Shown here piece after piece: positions 4,274 through 53,537 of a DNA stretch of 53,537 nucleotides. The stretch comes from Lentibacillus juripiscarius JCM 12147 (GTDB lineage Bacteria; Bacillota; Bacilli; Bacillales_D; Amphibacillaceae): assembly GCA_001311805.1 (NCBI GenBank), contig BBCA01000019.1, positions 1-53,537 of the forward strand. Reading direction: 5' to 3'. The first letter of the stretch is position 1. Each line of letters begins with the position of its first letter. The notes under the pieces were generated by a model. It worked only from the letters and a program-made list of their open reading frames with translations. It made no database searches and was not told the origin of the DNA. A program made the position numbers and the translations under genes.

Positions 4274-4804
4274 TCACTTATTCATTTTGGAGAAAAAGTC
4301 GGCGAGCGGGGACTCTTCTTCTTGTGGTTCTTCTGTATCCGGCTCATGCATGTCCTCAAGCTGATTCATATCAACACCATCCAAATCCGGCTTGTCCTCG
4401 GAAGGCGGGTCTGGCGGCATCATCTGCTCGAGTTCCAACTCTGGTTCCACTTGAGTATTTGGCTGGTTGCTGTTCAGCGTGGCCAATATCGACGTTGCCC
4501 GGACTGGATCCTGCATGAGCTGATACACAATATTACCAATCAGCGCTTCAGAATGTTCATGCTTCAACCAATTTTTCTGCTCTTTGGTAAGCTGACGGGG
4601 AAGCGGGACCGTTACCGATTCGCGCTCCCGTGTGAACGTTTCATGAACACCCTTCAGCACATATTGGGCAATTTGGCTGGAAAAATTACGGCGCTCGGTT
4701 TCTTTCAGCTTTTGCAGCTGCTTTAAAAGGTAATCGGGTGTATCGGACGGAATCCGAAATGTGATTGATTGCCCCCGTTCAATATTCTTTTTCGACTGTT
4801 GCAT
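4274..4804 (-). CDS. ParR-like ribbon-helix-helix adaptor of the actin-type partition system
   Basis: A 176-residue protein with an N-terminal segment (SITFRIPSDTPDYLLKQLQK, residues 14-33, then a helix ending QIAQYVLKGV) that fits a ribbon-helix-helix DNA-binding fold, a middle helical region, and an acidic Pro/Glu-rich tail ending SPLADFFSKMNK. It starts 9 bp after the parM stop with AAGGTGAT upstream, so it is very likely translated from the same message. By analogy with plasmid R1, ParR binds centromere repeats and its C-terminal peptide caps ParM filaments; the isolated C-terminal motif after an acidic linker fits that design. The ParR call rests on position and the RHH pattern, not on a recognised homolog. 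Confidence 0.7.
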   Translation of the reverse strand: MQQSKKNIERGQSITFRIPSDTPDYLLKQLQKLKETERRNFSSQIAQYVLKGVHETFTRERESVTVPLPRQLTKEQKNWLKHEHSEALIGNIVYQLMQDPVRATSILATLNSNQPNTQVEPELELEQMMPPDPPSEDKPDLDGVDMNQLEDMHEPDTEEPQEEESPLADFFSKMNK

Positions 4805-4813
4805 ACAATCACC

Positions 4814-5983
4814 TTACGCTTCGTCCGCTGCGGCTTGTTCCTTTACTTCCGCCGGGGCGCTTTTGTTCACAACATCCATAATCAGCTTATAATAGGCGTT
4901 GGCCATCATCCAGATACTTTCGTGTTCATCTTCAAAAAAGTCGATATTAAAGCCATCCAGTTATTGTTGAGTGCTTTCAGATAATCCTTCAGCACCGCCG
5001 AACCGCCGCCGACAAAATAGCAGATTTCCGACTGTGAATTCTTTTGCCATACATTGCGCAAGTGCCGGTATTCTTTTTAGCAAGCTCCAGCAAAATCCGA
5101 TCGGTAATGTCGTGGACGTTGGTCCGGCTGCCTTTCACCATAATATGATGCCGGTCGTTTTTCCTTGTAATAATATCCACAACATCACGGCGGCTGTCCA
5201 GTTCAACCCCGTGTTTGGTCCGAATTTCATCACGGATTTCCTCAAGCGATTCTGCAACACCAAGCGGGAAGCCCTGTGCCTTGTCATCATCCACATTCCG
5301 ATTCTTTATAACCGCAATATCGGTTGACAGGCCACCGATATCCTGAATCAAAATTTGCTGGTCAATCAACTCTTTGTTAATCACATTGAGATCGTTGTCC
5401 ATAATTAAATTAACATAGGCAGCAAACCCTTCCGGATATACCTTTACTTCATCAAATTTAATATTCACCTTTTTGCCCTGGTATTGTGGTGTCACTAGAA
5501 ATTCAACCTGGTGCACGACCCGAGCAGCTGAGACCGGTAACCGACATCCTTGCCTTCCTTCACTTCACGGAGCGGCAGGCCTGTTCCTAATGTATAGTTT
5601 GCATCGATGACATCATTTTTACCTTTACCGAATGAATTGCTGCTGACTGCATCCAAAGCTATGGAAGTAAACAGCATCACCAATGTCTGGTCTTCCTCCG
5701 ATTTACTGCTGCCAGGATCAAGCTCCGTGGAGTTATTCGCCTTCGTTGCCAGATTACCGACACGATAAACCGCATTGTTCTCCTCCAGGGCAGGGGAGTG
5801 GATCCGAATGTGCAGATTATCAACTGGATCCTTTTCATCCAGATCTTCTATGCCAATTACCGGCCGATCCTCCATATCACGCGCAATTACATTTGGTATG
5901 TAATAAGATTGTTCCATTTTCCCAAAGTTTGCTTTCACGGCATCATTTCCAACATCAACAGCGGCGACTCTTCCTTGTGTCAT
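4814..5983 (-). CDS. parM: ParM/StbA-family actin-like ATPase (three frameshifts)
   Basis: Filament-forming actin-like ATPase that pushes DNA copies apart during segregation. Reconstructed length about 390 residues. Actin-fold motifs are visible: phosphate-1 loop AAVDVGNDAVKANFG at the N-terminus, phosphate-2 motif IQDIGGLSTDIAV in the middle, and adenosine motif YFVGGGSAVLKDYL near the C-terminus. Start ATG at 5983 has AGAGGAG 10 nt upstream. Single-base losses interrupt it near 5510 (before HQVEFLVTPQY), in the A5 run near 5078 (one more A gives LAKKEYRHLRNVWQKNSQ) and near 4962 (one more G gives NNWMGFNIDFFEDE). The gene precedes parR directly and follows the TGTRTAC repeat cluster, matching a parMRC locus. 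Related genes occur mainly on plasmids; flanking genes here are ordinary chromosomal ones. Confidence 0.85.
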
Positions 5984-6103: not shown

Positions 6104-6244
6104 TTTGTATGCATTCTTTTTGTATACTTGTATACAAATACGCAACGCCTTTGTATCAATATGTATACTTGTTTGTGTACAAGAAAACGGATTTGTTTTC
6201 CCTGTGTGTACAAATTGTGTATATGTGTACAGAATTGTGTATAG
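6104..6244. repeat. Cluster of TGTRTAC repeats upstream of parM (candidate parC centromere)
   Basis: An AT-rich 140-bp stretch contains about ten variants of TTGTRTAY, several as inverted pairs: TTTGTAT (6104), TTTTTGTATAC (6117), TTGTATACAAAT (6129), TTTGTATC (6150), ATGTATACTTG (6161), TTTGTGTACAAG (6172), TGTGTGTACAAA (6203), TTGTGTATA (6215), ATGTGTACAG (6223) and TTGTGTATAG (6235). It lies 120-260 bp upstream of the parM start in an otherwise gene-free region, exactly where ParR would bind in an actin-type partition locus. It may also act as the operon operator. Confidence 0.65.
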
Positions 6245-6321
6245 GTATAATTTGGTAGATAAATAGGACGTTTTCTACTAAAGAAACAAATTTATAGGAC
6301 TTCCCCCTATCGCTGAAAGCA

Positions 6322-8727: not shown

Positions 8728-8808
8728 TTGTGAACTTTAGCATTATAATTGTGAACTTTAGGCAAAGTCAATGTGAACTTTAGCATTTTCCTTGTGAACT
8801 TTAGCATT
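8728..8808 (+). repeat. 21-bp array A: four TTGTGAACTTTAGCATT units
   Basis: GTGAACTTTA recurs at 8730, 8751, 8773 and 8794, that is, with steps of 21, 22 and 21 bp. Three of the four copies extend to GTGAACTTTAGCATT. The array sits between two convergent genes, past the terminator of the left one and before the terminator of the right one, so it is probably outside both transcripts. It has the same spacing as arrays B-F but a different head sequence. Confidence 0.85.
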
Positions 8809-8827
8809 TCACCTAAAATCATACAAA

Positions 8828-11973: not shown

Positions 11974-12345
11974 CGGGTTGATATTCGGGGGCTACTACGG
12001 TCGATTCTTCTGCTTCTCCGGTTGATATTCGGTGGCTCCGGTCGATTCCTTTGTTTCTCCGGTCGATTCTTCTGTTTTCCGGTCGATATCGGGCGCTCCG
12101 GTTGATTCTTCTGCTCCTCCGGTTGATATTCGGGGGCTCCGGTCGATTCTTCTGTTTCCGGTTGATATTCGGGTGGTTCCGGTCGATTCTTCTGTTTCTC
12201 CGGTTGATATTCGGGTGGTTCCGGTCGATTCTTCTGCTTCTCCGGTCGATATTCGGGGGCTCCGGTCGATTCTTCTGCTTCTCCGGTCGATATCGGGCGC
12301 CTTCGGTTGATATACACTCCCGAGCGATTGATATCCAGAATGCTC
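11974..12345 (+). repeat. 21-bp array B: about 18 CGGTYGAT units
   Basis: Eighteen consecutive units of 19-25 bp (mostly 20-21) begin with CGGTTGAT or CGGTCGAT. Two tail types mostly alternate: ATTCGGGGGCTC and TCTTCTGCTTCTC, so the higher-order repeat is about 41-42 bp. It fills most of the 629-bp gap between the start of the CoA-transferase gene and the end of the LytTR gene, both on the minus strand. The array is open in several frames on both strands because the unit contains no stop codons, but unit lengths of 19-21 bp shift the frame repeatedly and there is no ribosome binding site. Confidence 0.9.
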
Positions 12346-12418: not shown

Positions 12419-13063
12419 CTAAAACCCGAGCAGCTTCCGAAAGTAGCTCGAATACGACTGGCTGACCGGGACTTGGCCGCCATTATCCATTGCCAGCAGA
12501 AATGTCGAGTGGGTGTCCGGGTAAATATCTGTAATATGGTGCACATTAACAATAAACGACCGATGACAGCGGATAAATGTCTCCCGTGGCAGTGAGTATT
12601 CATAGTCCTGCAGCGCGCGTTTTGTTGTGCCGGCAAATTCCTTTGCGAACACGTAAGTTTTCCGGTCTTTTGCTTCCAGATAGACTACATCATGAAATGG
12701 GATTGGTTTCCACCCGTCTGCCGTTTTGACCGTGACCACGGATTTGCCTTCTGTCATTACCGGGTAAATCGCGGTAACGCACCCTTGCAATATTCCGTCT
12801 TGGTGAAACGGGACAGCCATTCCGTGATACGGTACGCCGAACACACTGCGATCAATGAATTCGGACACTTTTTGCCCTGAATGTAATGCTTTATGTGCAA
12901 TCGTTCCTTCAATAACCGGGTCCCCCGGCGCTATTTTTAAATCAATTCGTTTGCTCGGCCGGTAATAGATATATTCCGCTGTATCGGAAACAGCGATGGA
13001 TATTTCATCTGAAAAAAGTTCCCCGACGACATCAAATAGGGAACCGAACGTTAAACGATCCAT
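12419..13063 (-). CDS. LytTR-domain transcriptional regulator
   Basis: A 214-residue DNA-binding regulator. The C-terminal about 100 residues form a LytTR domain (DVVYLEAKDRKTYVFAKE, then PRETFIRCHRSFIVNVHHI and VPVSQSYSSYFRKLL). The N-terminal about 110 residues (SIAVSDTAEYIYYRPSKRID and onward to VTAIYP) look like a small sensor domain of PAS/GAF-like size; no ligand can be assigned. There is no receiver domain, so it is probably a one-component regulator. ATG at 13063 has GGAAAGGTG 9 nt upstream; an in-frame GTG at 13075 lies inside that ribosome site. It is divergent from the NADH dehydrogenase gene with 145 bp between them, so that gene is a likely target. Confidence 0.85.
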   Translation of the reverse strand: MDRLTFGSLFDVVGELFSDEISIAVSDTAEYIYYRPSKRIDLKIAPGDPVIEGTIAHKALHSGQKVSEFIDRSVFGVPYHGMAVPFHQDGILQGCVTAIYPVMTEGKSVVTVKTADGWKPIPFHDVVYLEAKDRKTYVFAKEFAGTTKRALQDYEYSLPRETFIRCHRSFIVNVHHITDIYPDTHSTFLLAMDNGGQVPVSQSYSSYFRKLLGF

Positions 13064-13208
13064 GTGACAAGACACCTTTCCTGCAATGTTCTAATGCTAC
13101 TGTATCATTGCCGGAAATAAAACAACAATTCCTATGTTTCCCTAGTTTTCCATCGGCAGTTTTGGTAATCTTAACAGTAAGAGCAATCATACATAAGGAG
13201 TTTTCGTC

Positions 13209-30413: not shown

Positions 30414-31318
30414 ATGAACTATATTAAACAGATTAACGTGTTTTACAGTCAGCTTGAGATTCGCCCGCTGTCGCCATCTGCCATTTCCCTCTGGCACGCA
30501 CTCATGCACATCAACAACAAAGCAGGCTGGAAAGAAACGTTTACCGTTGCGGGAATGGTTCTGCGCCTAAAATCCGGTCTGAACGAAAGCTCCTTTAAAC
30601 GTGCCCGAAGTGAACTAAAGAAAAATGGCTGCATTACATACATACCAGGCCGGGGAAACCAAGCTCCAAGCTATCAGCTCACCTGCCTTTGCTCCACAAT
30701 GGACCACAGTGCAAACGGGTTTGCGGACGGAAGAAGTGACCACGTTATGAACCACACGACGGACCACAATGCGGACCACGCAACGGACCAGATGATGGCC
30801 CACACTTCGGACCACTTTACGGACCATGGCACGGACTACACGGCGGACCTTGCCGCGGCCCCATTAGTTAAACAGAAACATAAAAAGAAACATAAACAAA
30901 ACCAAATGAAACAACTGCAGAAGCTATTATTTTTTACGAGAAACAGATTGGGGCCGTGCCACCATTAATCAGAAATTCCATCATGAATTGGATTGACGAT
31001 GTTGGCGACCTGCTCGTCCTAGAAGCGATGAAACGGGCATGGAAGCGCAACAAACCAAGCTGGAAATATATCCGGGGTATTTTGCAAGCATGGGTAAATG
31101 CCGGCATTCAGACCGTAGAGGCAGCCCAGGCTGAGGAAATGGTGTTTCACCACAAGCAGACATCCTTCCGCAAAAATGCAGCACCCGAAGAAGTAATTCC
31201 TGACTGGTTCAAGAAGCGGAAAAAGAATCCGTCAAAGCAAAAGACACAAGTGCCTACACCAGAAGAAACAGCAGAAACCGAGCGGCTGCTCACCCATTTT
31301 CGAGCAAAAACCAAGTAA
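30414..31318 (+). CDS. DnaD-domain protein with a tetrapeptide-repeat linker (one frameshift)
   Basis: About 302 residues. The N-terminal winged-helix part (YIKQINVFYSQLEIRPLSPS to LKKNGCITYIPGRGNQAPSY) resembles replisome-organizer/DnaD N-domains. The C-terminal part reads EAIIFYEKQIGAVPPLIRN, then MNWIDDVGDLLVLEAMKRAW and PSWKYIRGILQAWVNAGIQT, a DnaD domain (PF07261). Between them lies a linker of ten four-residue repeats (xDHx). One A is missing at 30909-30911. GAAGGAGG precedes the ATG. DnaD proteins remodel DNA and help load the helicase; this family is common in phages and mobile elements, but no other phage gene is nearby. Confidence 0.8.
30735..30854 (+). repeat. 12-bp coding repeat in the DnaD-like gene
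   Basis: Ten in-frame 12-bp units with consensus ACGGACCACNNN encode SDHV-MNHT-TDHN-ADHA-TDQM-MAHT-SDHF-TDHG-TDYT-ADLA. The linker is rich in Asp and His. The unit is exact in length in all ten copies, so the reading frame is kept, unlike in the intergenic arrays. Confidence 0.85.
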
Positions 31319-31385
31319 ATGCAGTGGTTATCTTTTTTCTTGCCCTATGGTTATGGCGACGGGGTGGATGTCTGGTGGGTGGGCA

Positions 31386-31761
31386 CGGGGTGATTTTCTT
31401 TGGCATTCGGTTGATTCTCGCCACAAACCGGGTGATTTTCCCTGCCATTCGGTTGATTCTCGCCACAAACCGGTTGATTTTCTCTGCCATTCGGTTGATT
31501 CTTGCCCAGACCGGTTGATTTTCTCTGGCATCCGGTTGATTCTTGCCGCAAACCGGTTGATTTTCCCCGACGTCCGGTTGATTCTCGGCGCAAACCGGTT
31601 GATTCTCCCTGGCATCCGGTTGATTCTTGCCACAAACCGGTTGATTCTCCCTGGCATTCAGTCGATTCTCGCCCAAAACGGTTGATTTCCCCCGACGTCC
31701 AGTTGATTCTCGCCCAAACCGGTTGATTTCCCCCGGCATCCGGTTGATTCTTGCCACAAAA
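31386..31761 (+). repeat. 21-bp array C: 18 CGGTTGAT units
   Basis: Eighteen consecutive units, fourteen of exactly 21 bp and the rest 20 or 22, begin CGGTTGAT (variants CGGGTGAT, CAGTTGAT, CAGTCGAT). Tails alternate between TTTCCCTGGCATY-type and TCTTGCCACAAAC-type, giving a 42-bp dimer repeat; both tail types are well conserved. It fills most of the 571-bp gap between the DnaD-like gene and the pentapeptide gene (both on +). Long open frames exist on both strands in three phases but have no starts with ribosome sites. Confidence 0.92.
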
Positions 31762-31889
31762 CACGATAACCCAGCAACGGCAAAAGTTTCTAATTCACAA
31801 AATCTGCCACTGCAATCCCGGCAATCATAACAAACTGCTGTACGACAGCCCCAGTATCGCCTATAATTTGGACAAAAGGGGGAAACACC

Positions 31890-32534
31890 ATGGCTAAGAA
31901 ACAACGACACATCCAAAAGCCGGATTTGCCGGAACAGCTGGAAAAGATGACCTTAAACGAACTTACCGATGAGGACTTTTGTGAAATGGGATCCATTCAA
32001 GAAACAGCCAGTAGTCCTGTACAGGCCGAACGCGTTCGATTCGATCAGATGCATTTTCAGAATGTGCGTTTGAACGATGCTGCACTGCCTTTTTCCCACT
32101 GGCTTGATGTCCTGTTCGAAAACTGCGACCTTTCCGGCGCTAGACTGCAGGGTGCACGGTTTAATCGTGTCGAGTTCAGAAATTGTAAACTGGCTGGAGC
32201 TGACCTGGACCGGGCCATCATGCAGGATGTCACATGGACAGGCTGCGAGGCCCCGTATCTCTTGTGCAATGAGAGTGAGCTCCGGGATGTCTATTTTGAC
32301 CACTGTTTAATAAAAGGCGCCAACTTCATACATGCGTCCGCTGACCATTTGCAGCTGGGCACATCAGATATTGACGATGTCCAGTTTTCCGGCACTTCAT
32401 TAGCCAATGTGGATTTGAGCCGCTGTACGTTCACGCAAATCCACCTTAATGAAGCAGACTTGCGTGGTTCCGTCATCGCACCAGAGCAGGCAGCCGGTTT
32501 TATTGGGTTATTTGGAATAAATGTCAAAGATTAA
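31890..32534 (+). CDS. Pentapeptide repeat protein
   Basis: A 214-residue protein whose central and C-terminal parts consist of pentapeptide repeats of the A(D/N)LXX type: CDLSGARLQGARFNRVEFRN, then CKLAGADLDRAIM, GANFIHA, VDLSRCTF and ADLRGSVI. It forms a right-handed quadrilateral beta-helix. Some relatives (Qnr, MfpA) mimic DNA and protect gyrase; most, including chromosomal Bacillus ones, have no known role. ATG at 31890 follows AAAGGGGG. Frame intact. Confidence 0.88.
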   Translation: MAKKQRHIQKPDLPEQLEKMTLNELTDEDFCEMGSIQETASSPVQAERVRFDQMHFQNVRLNDAALPFSHWLDVLFENCDLSGARLQGARFNRVEFRNCKLAGADLDRAIMQDVTWTGCEAPYLLCNESELRDVYFDHCLIKGANFIHASADHLQLGTSDIDDVQFSGTSLANVDLSRCTFTQIHLNEADLRGSVIAPEQAAGFIGLFGINVKD

Positions 32535-37170: not shown

Positions 37171-37296
37171 CGGGTTGATATTTTCTGTAAACCGGTTGAT
37201 TTTCCATGTAAGGCGGTTGATATCCCGCCGCGACCGGTTGATATCCACCGCTAACCAGTTAATATCCTTTTAAACCGGTTGATATTTCCGTGTGCT
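37171..37296 (+). repeat. 21-bp array D: six CGGTTGATAT units
   Basis: Six units of 20-22 bp begin CGGGTTGATAT, CGGTTGATTT, CGGTTGATAT (twice), CAGTTAATAT and CGGTTGATAT, starting at 37171. A degenerate seventh (TTAATATTTGGCGA) precedes. Tails differ more than in arrays B and C (TTTCTGTAAAC, TTCCATGTAAGG, CCCGCCGCGAC, CCACCGCTAAC). It lies between the flotillin terminator and the start of the DUF4181-like gene. Confidence 0.88.
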
Positions 37297-37344
37297 CTGT
37301 CATCCCCCCCAAGGCAACACCTTCAACATGGCAACACAACGAAC

Positions 37345-37387
37345 TTGAAAAAAGCAGGCGCCATTTCCCGGGAAATAGCGCCTGCTT
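37345..37387 (-). terminator. Terminator of floT
   Basis: AGCAGGCGC pairs with GCGCCTGCT around a second inverted repeat, TTTCCCGGGAAA, in the loop; followed on the minus strand by TTTTTTCAAG. It begins about 60 bp after the stop codon. Confidence 0.85.
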
Positions 37388-53396: not shown

Positions 53397-53537
53397 AGCG
53401 CGCGACTTTCCCGGTTCGCGCGACTTTGGCCCGGGCGCTCGATTTGAAACGGCTCTCGCTCGATTTGAGACGGCTCTCGCTCGATTTGAGGCGGTTCTCG
53501 CTCGAGTTGCGGCTGCTCTCGCTCGAGTTGCGGCTGC
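53397..53537 (+). repeat. 21-bp array E: CGCTCGATTTGA units (runs off the window)
   Basis: Seven units with the GA core at 53404, 53422, 53441, 53462, 53483, 53504 and 53525: steps of 18, 19, 21, 21, 21 and 21 bp. Heads change along the array, from CGCGCGACTTT (two) through CGCTCGATTTGA (three) to CGCTCGAGTTGCGGCTGCTC (two). Strongly GC-rich compared with the AT-rich sequence at its left. The array continues past the window end. It lies upstream of the membrane-protein gene, about 200 bp from its start. Confidence 0.88.

Follow-up and report, generated by a model that had tools for sequence, protein, structure and literature searches.

Tandem repeats with a unit of 20-21 nt were described by Subirana and Messeguer (IJMS 2021, PMC8161180), who counted 781 of them in 176 Bacillus genomes. 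According to the part of that paper available to us, the repeats are in general non-coding and combine a constant length with a variable sequence, in which a short signal is found for each species; the signal of the 21-nt example from B. weihaiensis is TCGCGG, and not the GGTYGAT discussed below. The same text reports several families per genome, a patchy distribution among Bacillus and an occurrence in other bacteria, and calls the families species-specific, without sequence conservation, B. simplex and B. muralis excepted; partial conservation between strains is given for a 52-nt class. The authors remark on the two helical turns of the unit; having found no obvious function for the repeats, they put forward a nucleoid protein or small RNAs. 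It is the only paper on such arrays among those listed by our literature searches, and we do not claim the head GGTTGATA/GGTYGAT to be absent from print.

The window (the whole stretch of 53,537 nucleotides analysed here) holds arrays that belong to this kind of repeat. They share with it the 20-21 nt unit (19-23 bp in array B), the non-coding character, the presence of several families and the retention of a short signal, in this case GGTYGAT. A first-pass annotation of the window had regarded its arrays as an element not yet described, which does not hold in view of the 20-21 nt non-coding tandem repeats in the accessible text of PMC8161180. We propose from the sequence data that they are DNA binding arrays, with the heads placed on one face of the helix, for a putative oligomerising protein of probably structural function, and give this reading a probability of roughly 0.6.

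Arrays of the window and of a syntenic relative

The window is a piece of Bacillaceae chromosome with hut genes, flotillin and others, several of these names having been assigned by inspection of translations only. The arrays and the genes discussed with them are collected in Table 1.

Table 1. Arrays of the window and associated genes; positions refer to the window.
Feature	Position	Strand	Description
ParR-like protein gene	4274-4804	-	follows the actin gene; apparent ribbon-helix-helix
ParM/Alp7A-like actin gene	4989-5983	-	overlapping ORFs 5495-5983 (ALP_N) and 4989-5516 (Alp7A C-terminal); apparent frameshift
Array A	8728-8809	+	head TTGTGAACTTTAG in about 4 units of 21 bp; flanking ORFs convergent
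Array B	11976-12325	+	17 exact GGTYGAT heads; units of 19-23 bp; alternating tails
LytTR-domain gene	12419-13075	-	array B lies 3' of it
DnaB_2-domain (DnaD-like) gene	30414-31318	+	adjoins array C on the left; its two ORFs overlap and differ in frame
Array C	31387-31761	+	head CGGTTGAT in 18 units of 20-21 bp; 42-bp dimer of alternating tails
Pentapeptide-repeat protein gene	31890-32534	+	right neighbour of array C; Pentapeptide_4, 8.8e-43
Array D	37173-37297	+	five exact GGTTGAT heads in six registers of 20-21 bp
Array E	53436-53530	+	4.5 units of 21 bp; near the window end

Fifteen units of array C measure 21 bp and three measure 20 bp, the length of the last unit being set by convention. 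The heads read exactly GGTYGAT in 14 of the 18 units, and the deviant ones are GGGTGAT (two), AGTCGAT and AGTTGAT. Neighbouring heads are identical at 0.93 of their positions, while the mean identity of tails amounts to 0.42 for units one, three or five apart and to 0.78, 0.72 and 0.78 for units two, four and six apart. The 18 units, the 21-bp period of two helical turns and the two alternating tails that the first-pass annotation had described are thus borne out, and the two-unit periodicity of the tails supports its proposal that a dimer was amplified. Tandem Repeats Finder scores the array at 481 with a 42-bp unit and at 533 with a 125-bp unit. One hundred order-1 Markov randomisations of the window yielded 21 rows at a score of at least 50, none at 100 or above and a maximum of 65; array C is real, with nothing close to it in randomised sequence. 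A CRISPR array has long constant repeats and unique spacers, whereas the constant part here is 7-8 bp long and the tails, of 12-14 bp, recur within array C, in agreement with the first reading of the window.

Coding by array C was considered for two reverse-strand ORFs that cross it (31290-31916 and 31351-31764) and was rejected, as the mixture of 20- and 21-bp units would shift the frame. Hairpins between tails were likewise rejected: some tails of array C appear complementary by eye (TGGCA, TGCCA), with no general excess over random pairs. On the left side of the array, a match to DnaB_2 (PF07261, 5.7e-14) lies in the second ORF of the neighbouring gene (30956-31318), and the first ORF (30414-30968) is without a Pfam match; the DnaD-like identity is our own reading of the DnaB_2 match. 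Degenerate 12/36-bp repeats, translated as repeated T-D-H motifs, occur in this first ORF at 30738-30849.

At least five further arrays with heads differing between arrays had been reported for the window. Four of these were located (A, B, D and E) and the one designated F was not; the heads of A and E do differ, but GGTYGAT is common to B, C and D. The heads of array E follow CGCTCGA[TG]TT, with five copies at 53436-53520 (each CGCTCGATTT or CGCTCGAGTT), and are preceded by two GCGCGACTTT words at 53400 and 53418, which correspond to a second head class of relatives. Array E may extend beyond the end of the window.

A syntenic relative (G050), whose aligned blocks are mostly 70-82% identical to the window at the DNA level, differs in its arrays. 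The site of array B is empty there (about 75 bp against about 460 in the window), and no such array is found at the places corresponding to A and D. Between the DnaD-like and pentapeptide genes, in the spacer that holds array C in the window, the relative carries a shorter array, of about 21 bp and with the head CGCGCGAGTTT. Conversely, a 34-unit, 21-bp array of GCTATTCCGTCGATGTGCAAC in the relative (L235 4231-4939, G050:C1) has no counterpart at the corresponding place of the window. Judged from this alignment, array turnover around the window is fast and position poorly conserved.

A palindrome, ATTTCCCGGGAAAT, which we take to be a Noc binding site, lies at 37363-37376 in a terminator-like stem adjoining array D, and a similar one is found beside the array of locus L302. 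A link between arrays and Noc sites was rejected, the motif being present within 300 bp of 0/13, 0/26, 0/41, 0/29 and 1/3 arrays in five groups; L302 is outside these groups, and its one motif was seen by eye.

Spread of the heads and constraint on head and tail

Three phased CGGTYGAT heads were found in at least 119 stretches in contigs of species genomes. Among the matches listed, Oceanobacillus halophilus, Virgibacillus, Lentibacillus and Rossellomorea have several stretches or matches each, and the stretches from other phyla are mostly single matches. For the family and the order, as defined by the taxonomy of the genome collection, we searched the pattern GGTTGAT-GGTYGAT-GGTYGAT with spacers N{12,14}, and used the same pattern read backward as control. 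Of the 159 family genomes, 21 contain it, with up to 424 matches in one genome (O. halophilus 424, V. oceani 395, control 0 in both), against two with the control (G056 with two matches, G106 with one). Among 397 genomes sampled from the order of Rossellomorea, 25 contain the pattern, seven of these with a single match, and the control is found in three (G056 two matches, G321 three, G525 one); the two sets overlap, with G055, G056 and G065 among the positives of both. A second head, GCGCGANTTT, is phased likewise in 9/159 genomes (control 0), and the heads searched are two of several. Because 138 of the 159 family genomes lack the head pattern, the function must be dispensable or served by other heads. 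The dispersed family predicted from the window is present in related Bacillales, and a genome scan without excess arrays, named beforehand as the outcome that would speak against it, turned out the other way when relatives were compared with the backward-read control.

In a sample of 800 kb (40 stretches) from G064, we counted 54 non-overlapping tandem repeats, 28 of which have a period of 20-21 bp or a multiple of it; they were not sorted for coding and fall mostly into two head classes. Several sequence families of one length thus coexist in a genome, as they do in the window with the differing heads of A, C and E. Two arrays of G064:C1 about 190 kb apart (L188 15446-15764 and L189 8808-9145) have nearly the same 40-41 bp two-unit consensus, which suggests copying between sites. 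Another array of this contig (L183 17402-18952) is spaced at 66 bp (TRF period 198), its repeat, TTTCTCTATACCAAAAACTGAGATAGTACCAAAAC, measuring about 35 bp, and is likely to be a CRISPR array of the ordinary kind. In L173, a 21-bp repeat next to a DUF4181 gene reads as an open frame from ATG and was left aside.

The relation of head to tail was followed within one genome, G063, in 20 stretches that comprise most of its listed loci and contain 26 runs of exact heads with 143 spacings. The spacing is 21 bp in 111 cases and 20 bp in 32, the counting accepting only these two values by design. Neighbouring tails are 0.35 identical, against 0.34 for random pairs and 0.29 for shuffled letters, with a weak two-unit signal (0.46). 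Since these arrays had been found by their exact heads, we also inspected places outside the retrieval. Two units past the end of a run a head with at least six of seven matches is present in 17/52 cases, and three units past in 9/52; the controls gave 2/52 at 30-32 bp, 2/52 at 50-52 bp, 0/52 at 205-207 bp and 1/52 at 1000-1002 bp. Head and spacing are thus retained in this genome although the tails are close to random. Such arrays can be missed by repeat finders: of the 26 in G063, Tandem Repeats Finder covers nine at score 50, compared with 33/41 in loci L336-L375, 13/13 in the G064 sample and 12/12 in O. halophilus (ten loci).

For a comparison between genomes, forty pieces around arrays in 14 genomes, together with locus L034, gave nine orthologous sets whose flanks align across two to four genomes. 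The sets were picked by eye from a BLAST table, pieces without a partner were left out, and one set has two genomes of the same species name. Over 20 genome pairs, the six fixed head positions had changed in 20/621 cases and the Y position in 13/104, against 279/1352 for tails and 1382/5539 for flanks. No insertion was seen within a head in these pairs, and the 45 fixed head positions that fall in gaps mostly belong to whole missing units. Because both members of a pair had been retrieved by an exact triple, the count was repeated outside the retrieval triples, with 7/198 changes in heads (3.5%) and 97/436 in tails (22%; Fisher p 1.2e-10, although pairs of the same set are not independent). 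When only the first pair of each set is taken, heads changed at a lower rate than tails in eight of nine, the ninth having 0 against 0; among all 20 pairs one is level, L374/L375, with no change in heads or tails. From one head to the next, the tail positions changed in 6, 12, 16, 26, 28, 35, 37, 24, 28, 17, 10, 13 and 19% of cases, a profile that gives a footprint reaching about three bases beyond the head in either direction, with the middle of the tail freest. In one set, four genomes have all kept a first head that deviates, GGTCGGT.

Strong matches between flanking proteins mark shared loci, and we read the widespread matches of low identity as common protein families. By eye, a clear unit-by-unit correspondence was seen in one of seven pairs with strong matches (L021/L326); in the other six, the arrays are common in place or neighbour and not in each unit.

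These rates bear on the possibility that the arrays are neutral minisatellites, in which slippage and unequal recombination would amplify any 20-21 bp unit and the shared head would reflect common descent. Homogeneous arrays, the two-unit periodicity of tails, a unit number that varies between orthologous arrays (8 against 12 in L352/L355) and the gain or loss of sites between the window and its relative are what such a process would leave behind, and the published class is called species-specific in the accessible text (PMC8161180). There is also one exception among the 20 pairs, L336/L344, in which the heads are no slower than the tails (2/36 and 3/78). However, in orthologous arrays the head changes about six times more slowly than the tail, which also holds when the ascertained units are set apart; heads and phase are kept where tails are random, and the same heptamer is present in many genera. 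We therefore regard a purely neutral origin as unlikely. Slippage nevertheless explains much of the bulk of the amplified arrays of O. halophilus, G064 and the window, because there the tails are alike as well.

Placement of the arrays and candidate binders

No gene call extends across any of 29 arrays (the window together with the G063 loci), after the exclusion beforehand of ORFs that consist mostly of array. This agrees with the view that the arrays hold no supported gene, and translation, the second outcome named in advance as contrary evidence, did not come true in the relatives, where arrays are intergenic. Sorted by head strand, the contexts of the 29 arrays are ++ 10, +- 8, -- 8 and -+ 3; a wider set that overlaps them gave ++ 14, -- 14, +- 17 and -+ 7, and the order set ++ 8, -- 6, +- 20 and -+ 4, with two open. 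Convergent gaps make up 36/87 of those with arrays and 97/553 of control gaps (p 2.8e-6), divergent ones 8/87 and 107/553 (p 0.02), as counted with crude, home-made ORF calls, with orthologous loci taken separately and controls mostly from G064. The convergent share is 3/10 against 60/355 in G064, 8/24 against 12/83 in G063 and 19/36 in L336-L375, so that the enrichment is strongest in one subset, which contributes 19 of the 36. A terminator-like site lies between the gene 3' end and the array in 51/92 cases, compared with 92/384 control ends, as judged by a home-made detector and with operon-internal gaps included among the controls. The arrays are intergenic, indifferent to the direction of transcription, enriched between convergent genes and often located beyond a terminator-like site.

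Replication polarity was rejected as a rule, the arrays of G064 and G063 being found in both orientations within a replichore. In the window, arrays B, C and D are all on the + strand, where the GC skew is mostly negative. In G051, arrays are on the - strand up to 0.82 Mb and on the + strand from 2.19 Mb. The region 1.35-2.385 Mb of G063:C1 has no match to the GGTYGAT array, and the GC skew changes sign there, as at a terminus; this gap, with a p of 0.004 to 0.04 depending on how clusters are merged, is a hint of terminus depletion from one genome.

To our knowledge, no protein is known to bind the GGTYGAT head, and none of three candidates, a ParR-like protein, LytTR and RemA, is both necessary and discriminating; the first two are not required. 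We consider it improbable that the arrays serve a universal protein of ring-shaped or LytTR type such as RemA, which is proposed to wrap DNA. LytTR sites are direct repeats about 21-22 bp apart with a core of GTT, and array B adjoins a LytTR gene, but the C tolerated in GGTYGAT breaks that core, and G087 has arrays (seven matches) with no LytTR match, the other 20 array genomes having LytTR matches. RemA is found in 158/159 genomes, a near-universal presence that does not explain arrays in a minority and by itself speaks neither for RemA as the binder nor decisively against it. The available part of the RemA literature describes the protein as LytTR-related and proposes that it wraps repetitive DNA; the footprints reported in the same text are AT-rich protections of 7 bp with gaps of 3 bp, and hence a period of about 10 bp (PMC8481266).

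An element acting at the RNA level, with arrays transcribed and heads working as a sponge, small RNA or structured RNA, appears quite improbable. Transcription of the 52-nt repeats of B. coagulans is reported from published RNA-seq in the accessible texts (PMC8161180, PMC8625621) and speaks for this idea. Against it, heads in tandem gene contexts are evenly oriented, 14 pointing with and 14 against transcription in the wider set and 8 and 6 in the order set; a terminator-like site precedes the array at about half of the facing gene ends, and the window has no Rfam family at gathering score. Complementarity between neighbouring tails does not exceed that of random pairs in G063 (2.92 against 3.13), the window (2.62 against 2.77), O. 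halophilus (2.73 against 2.73) or the pooled loci of G058, G097 and G099 (2.85 against 3.32), and a slight excess is seen in G064 (2.85 against 2.62) and V. oceani (2.46 against 2.31).

A chromosomal actin of the ParM/Alp7A type and an adjoining, apparently ribbon-helix-helix ParR-like protein are encoded in the window at 4274-5983, the latter without a confident match in Pfam or any match in the PDB. Plasmid ParR proteins bind tandem repeats of about 20 bp, and the ParR-like protein is present in 73/159 related genomes, namely in 17 of the 21 with arrays and in 56 of the remaining 138 (Fisher p 7e-4, phylogeny not corrected). That the arrays are dispersed centromere-like sites of this pair is nevertheless highly improbable, given four array genomes (G051, G099, G105 and G106) without a ParR-like match at E 1e-3, 56 genomes with the protein but no match to the GGTYGAT pattern, and repeats of another sequence upstream of the actin operon. 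These repeats, at 6150-6250, consist of TGTGTACA/TGTATA words with two 20-bp copies at 6205-6243, and are possibly the actin gene's own centromere or operator.

The proposed binding arrays and known systems

We return to the reading that the arrays bind an oligomerising protein. A directional heptamer selected at a fixed two-turn phase, regardless of the direction of transcription, points to a cooperative DNA-binding protein, and the cooperative binding suggested by the first-pass annotation stands as the best explanation of the retained head and phase and the indifference to orientation. The head, GGTYGAT with a weaker constraint on about three bases to either side, would be the site for one protein subunit. 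With heads every 20-21 bp, or two helical turns, neighbouring subunits would share one helix face and could bind cooperatively in one direction, the tails serving mostly as spacers. New units would arise by tandem duplication, often two at once, and this amplification would account for homogeneous arrays such as C and B; selection would then keep head and phase while the tails drift. A structural or topological role (nucleoid, supercoiling, insulation) is more likely than promoter control, because the arrays are intergenic, indifferent to direction, favour convergent junctions and often lie beyond a terminator-like site. Speaking against the binding reading are the family genomes that lack the pattern, the poor conservation of position around the window and the pair L336/L344. 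More tentatively, and with the odds somewhat against so broad a statement, a hitherto unrecognised architectural DNA-binding protein across the order Bacillales might read GGTYGAT at two-turn phase, in some lineages together with or replaced by GCGCGANTTT, and coat or wrap tens of intergenic arrays per chromosome, preferring convergent junctions and places outside the terminus region, with head and phase under selection and the rest drifting. If this were true, such bacterial satellites would be nucleoid-organising sites and not junk.

Several known systems resemble parts of this arrangement. The REP/BIME elements of enterobacteria are palindromes of 35-40 bp, dispersed between genes with a preference for gene 3' ends, for which the binding of architectural or topological proteins has been proposed. 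The present arrays are likewise dispersed, intergenic and biased towards gene 3' ends, but their heads are short, directional direct repeats, non-palindromic by inspection, and their tails have no general complementarity. Plasmid iterons and the ParR/parC system also consist of direct repeats about two turns apart, with a conserved core and a looser remainder, bound on one face. They form, however, one site per replicon beside its gene, whereas the richest genomes here have tens of arrays per chromosome, and a ParR-like protein does not strictly track them. Direct repeats with helical phasing are shared with LytTR and RemA regions too; the latter, in the part of their description available, have a period of about 10 bp and lie upstream of promoters, and LytTR has no match in one array-bearing genome.

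The nearest relatives remain the 20-21 nt repeats of Bacillus. Their families are reported as species-specific, whereas one heptamer is found here across genera (21/159 and 25/397 genomes, some of them in both sets); in addition, the tails of the present arrays need not repeat, and orthologous arrays reveal constraint on the head. Relative to the accessible text of PMC8161180, a head shared across genera, non-repeating tails, head constraint and a placement that is free of orientation and favours convergent junctions are new. Because the published repeats looked species-specific, the nucleoid-protein and small-RNA hypotheses had no shared sequence to work with. An order-wide heptamer with a phylogenetic footprint and a fixed helical phase provides a defined bait, and an argument for DNA over RNA.
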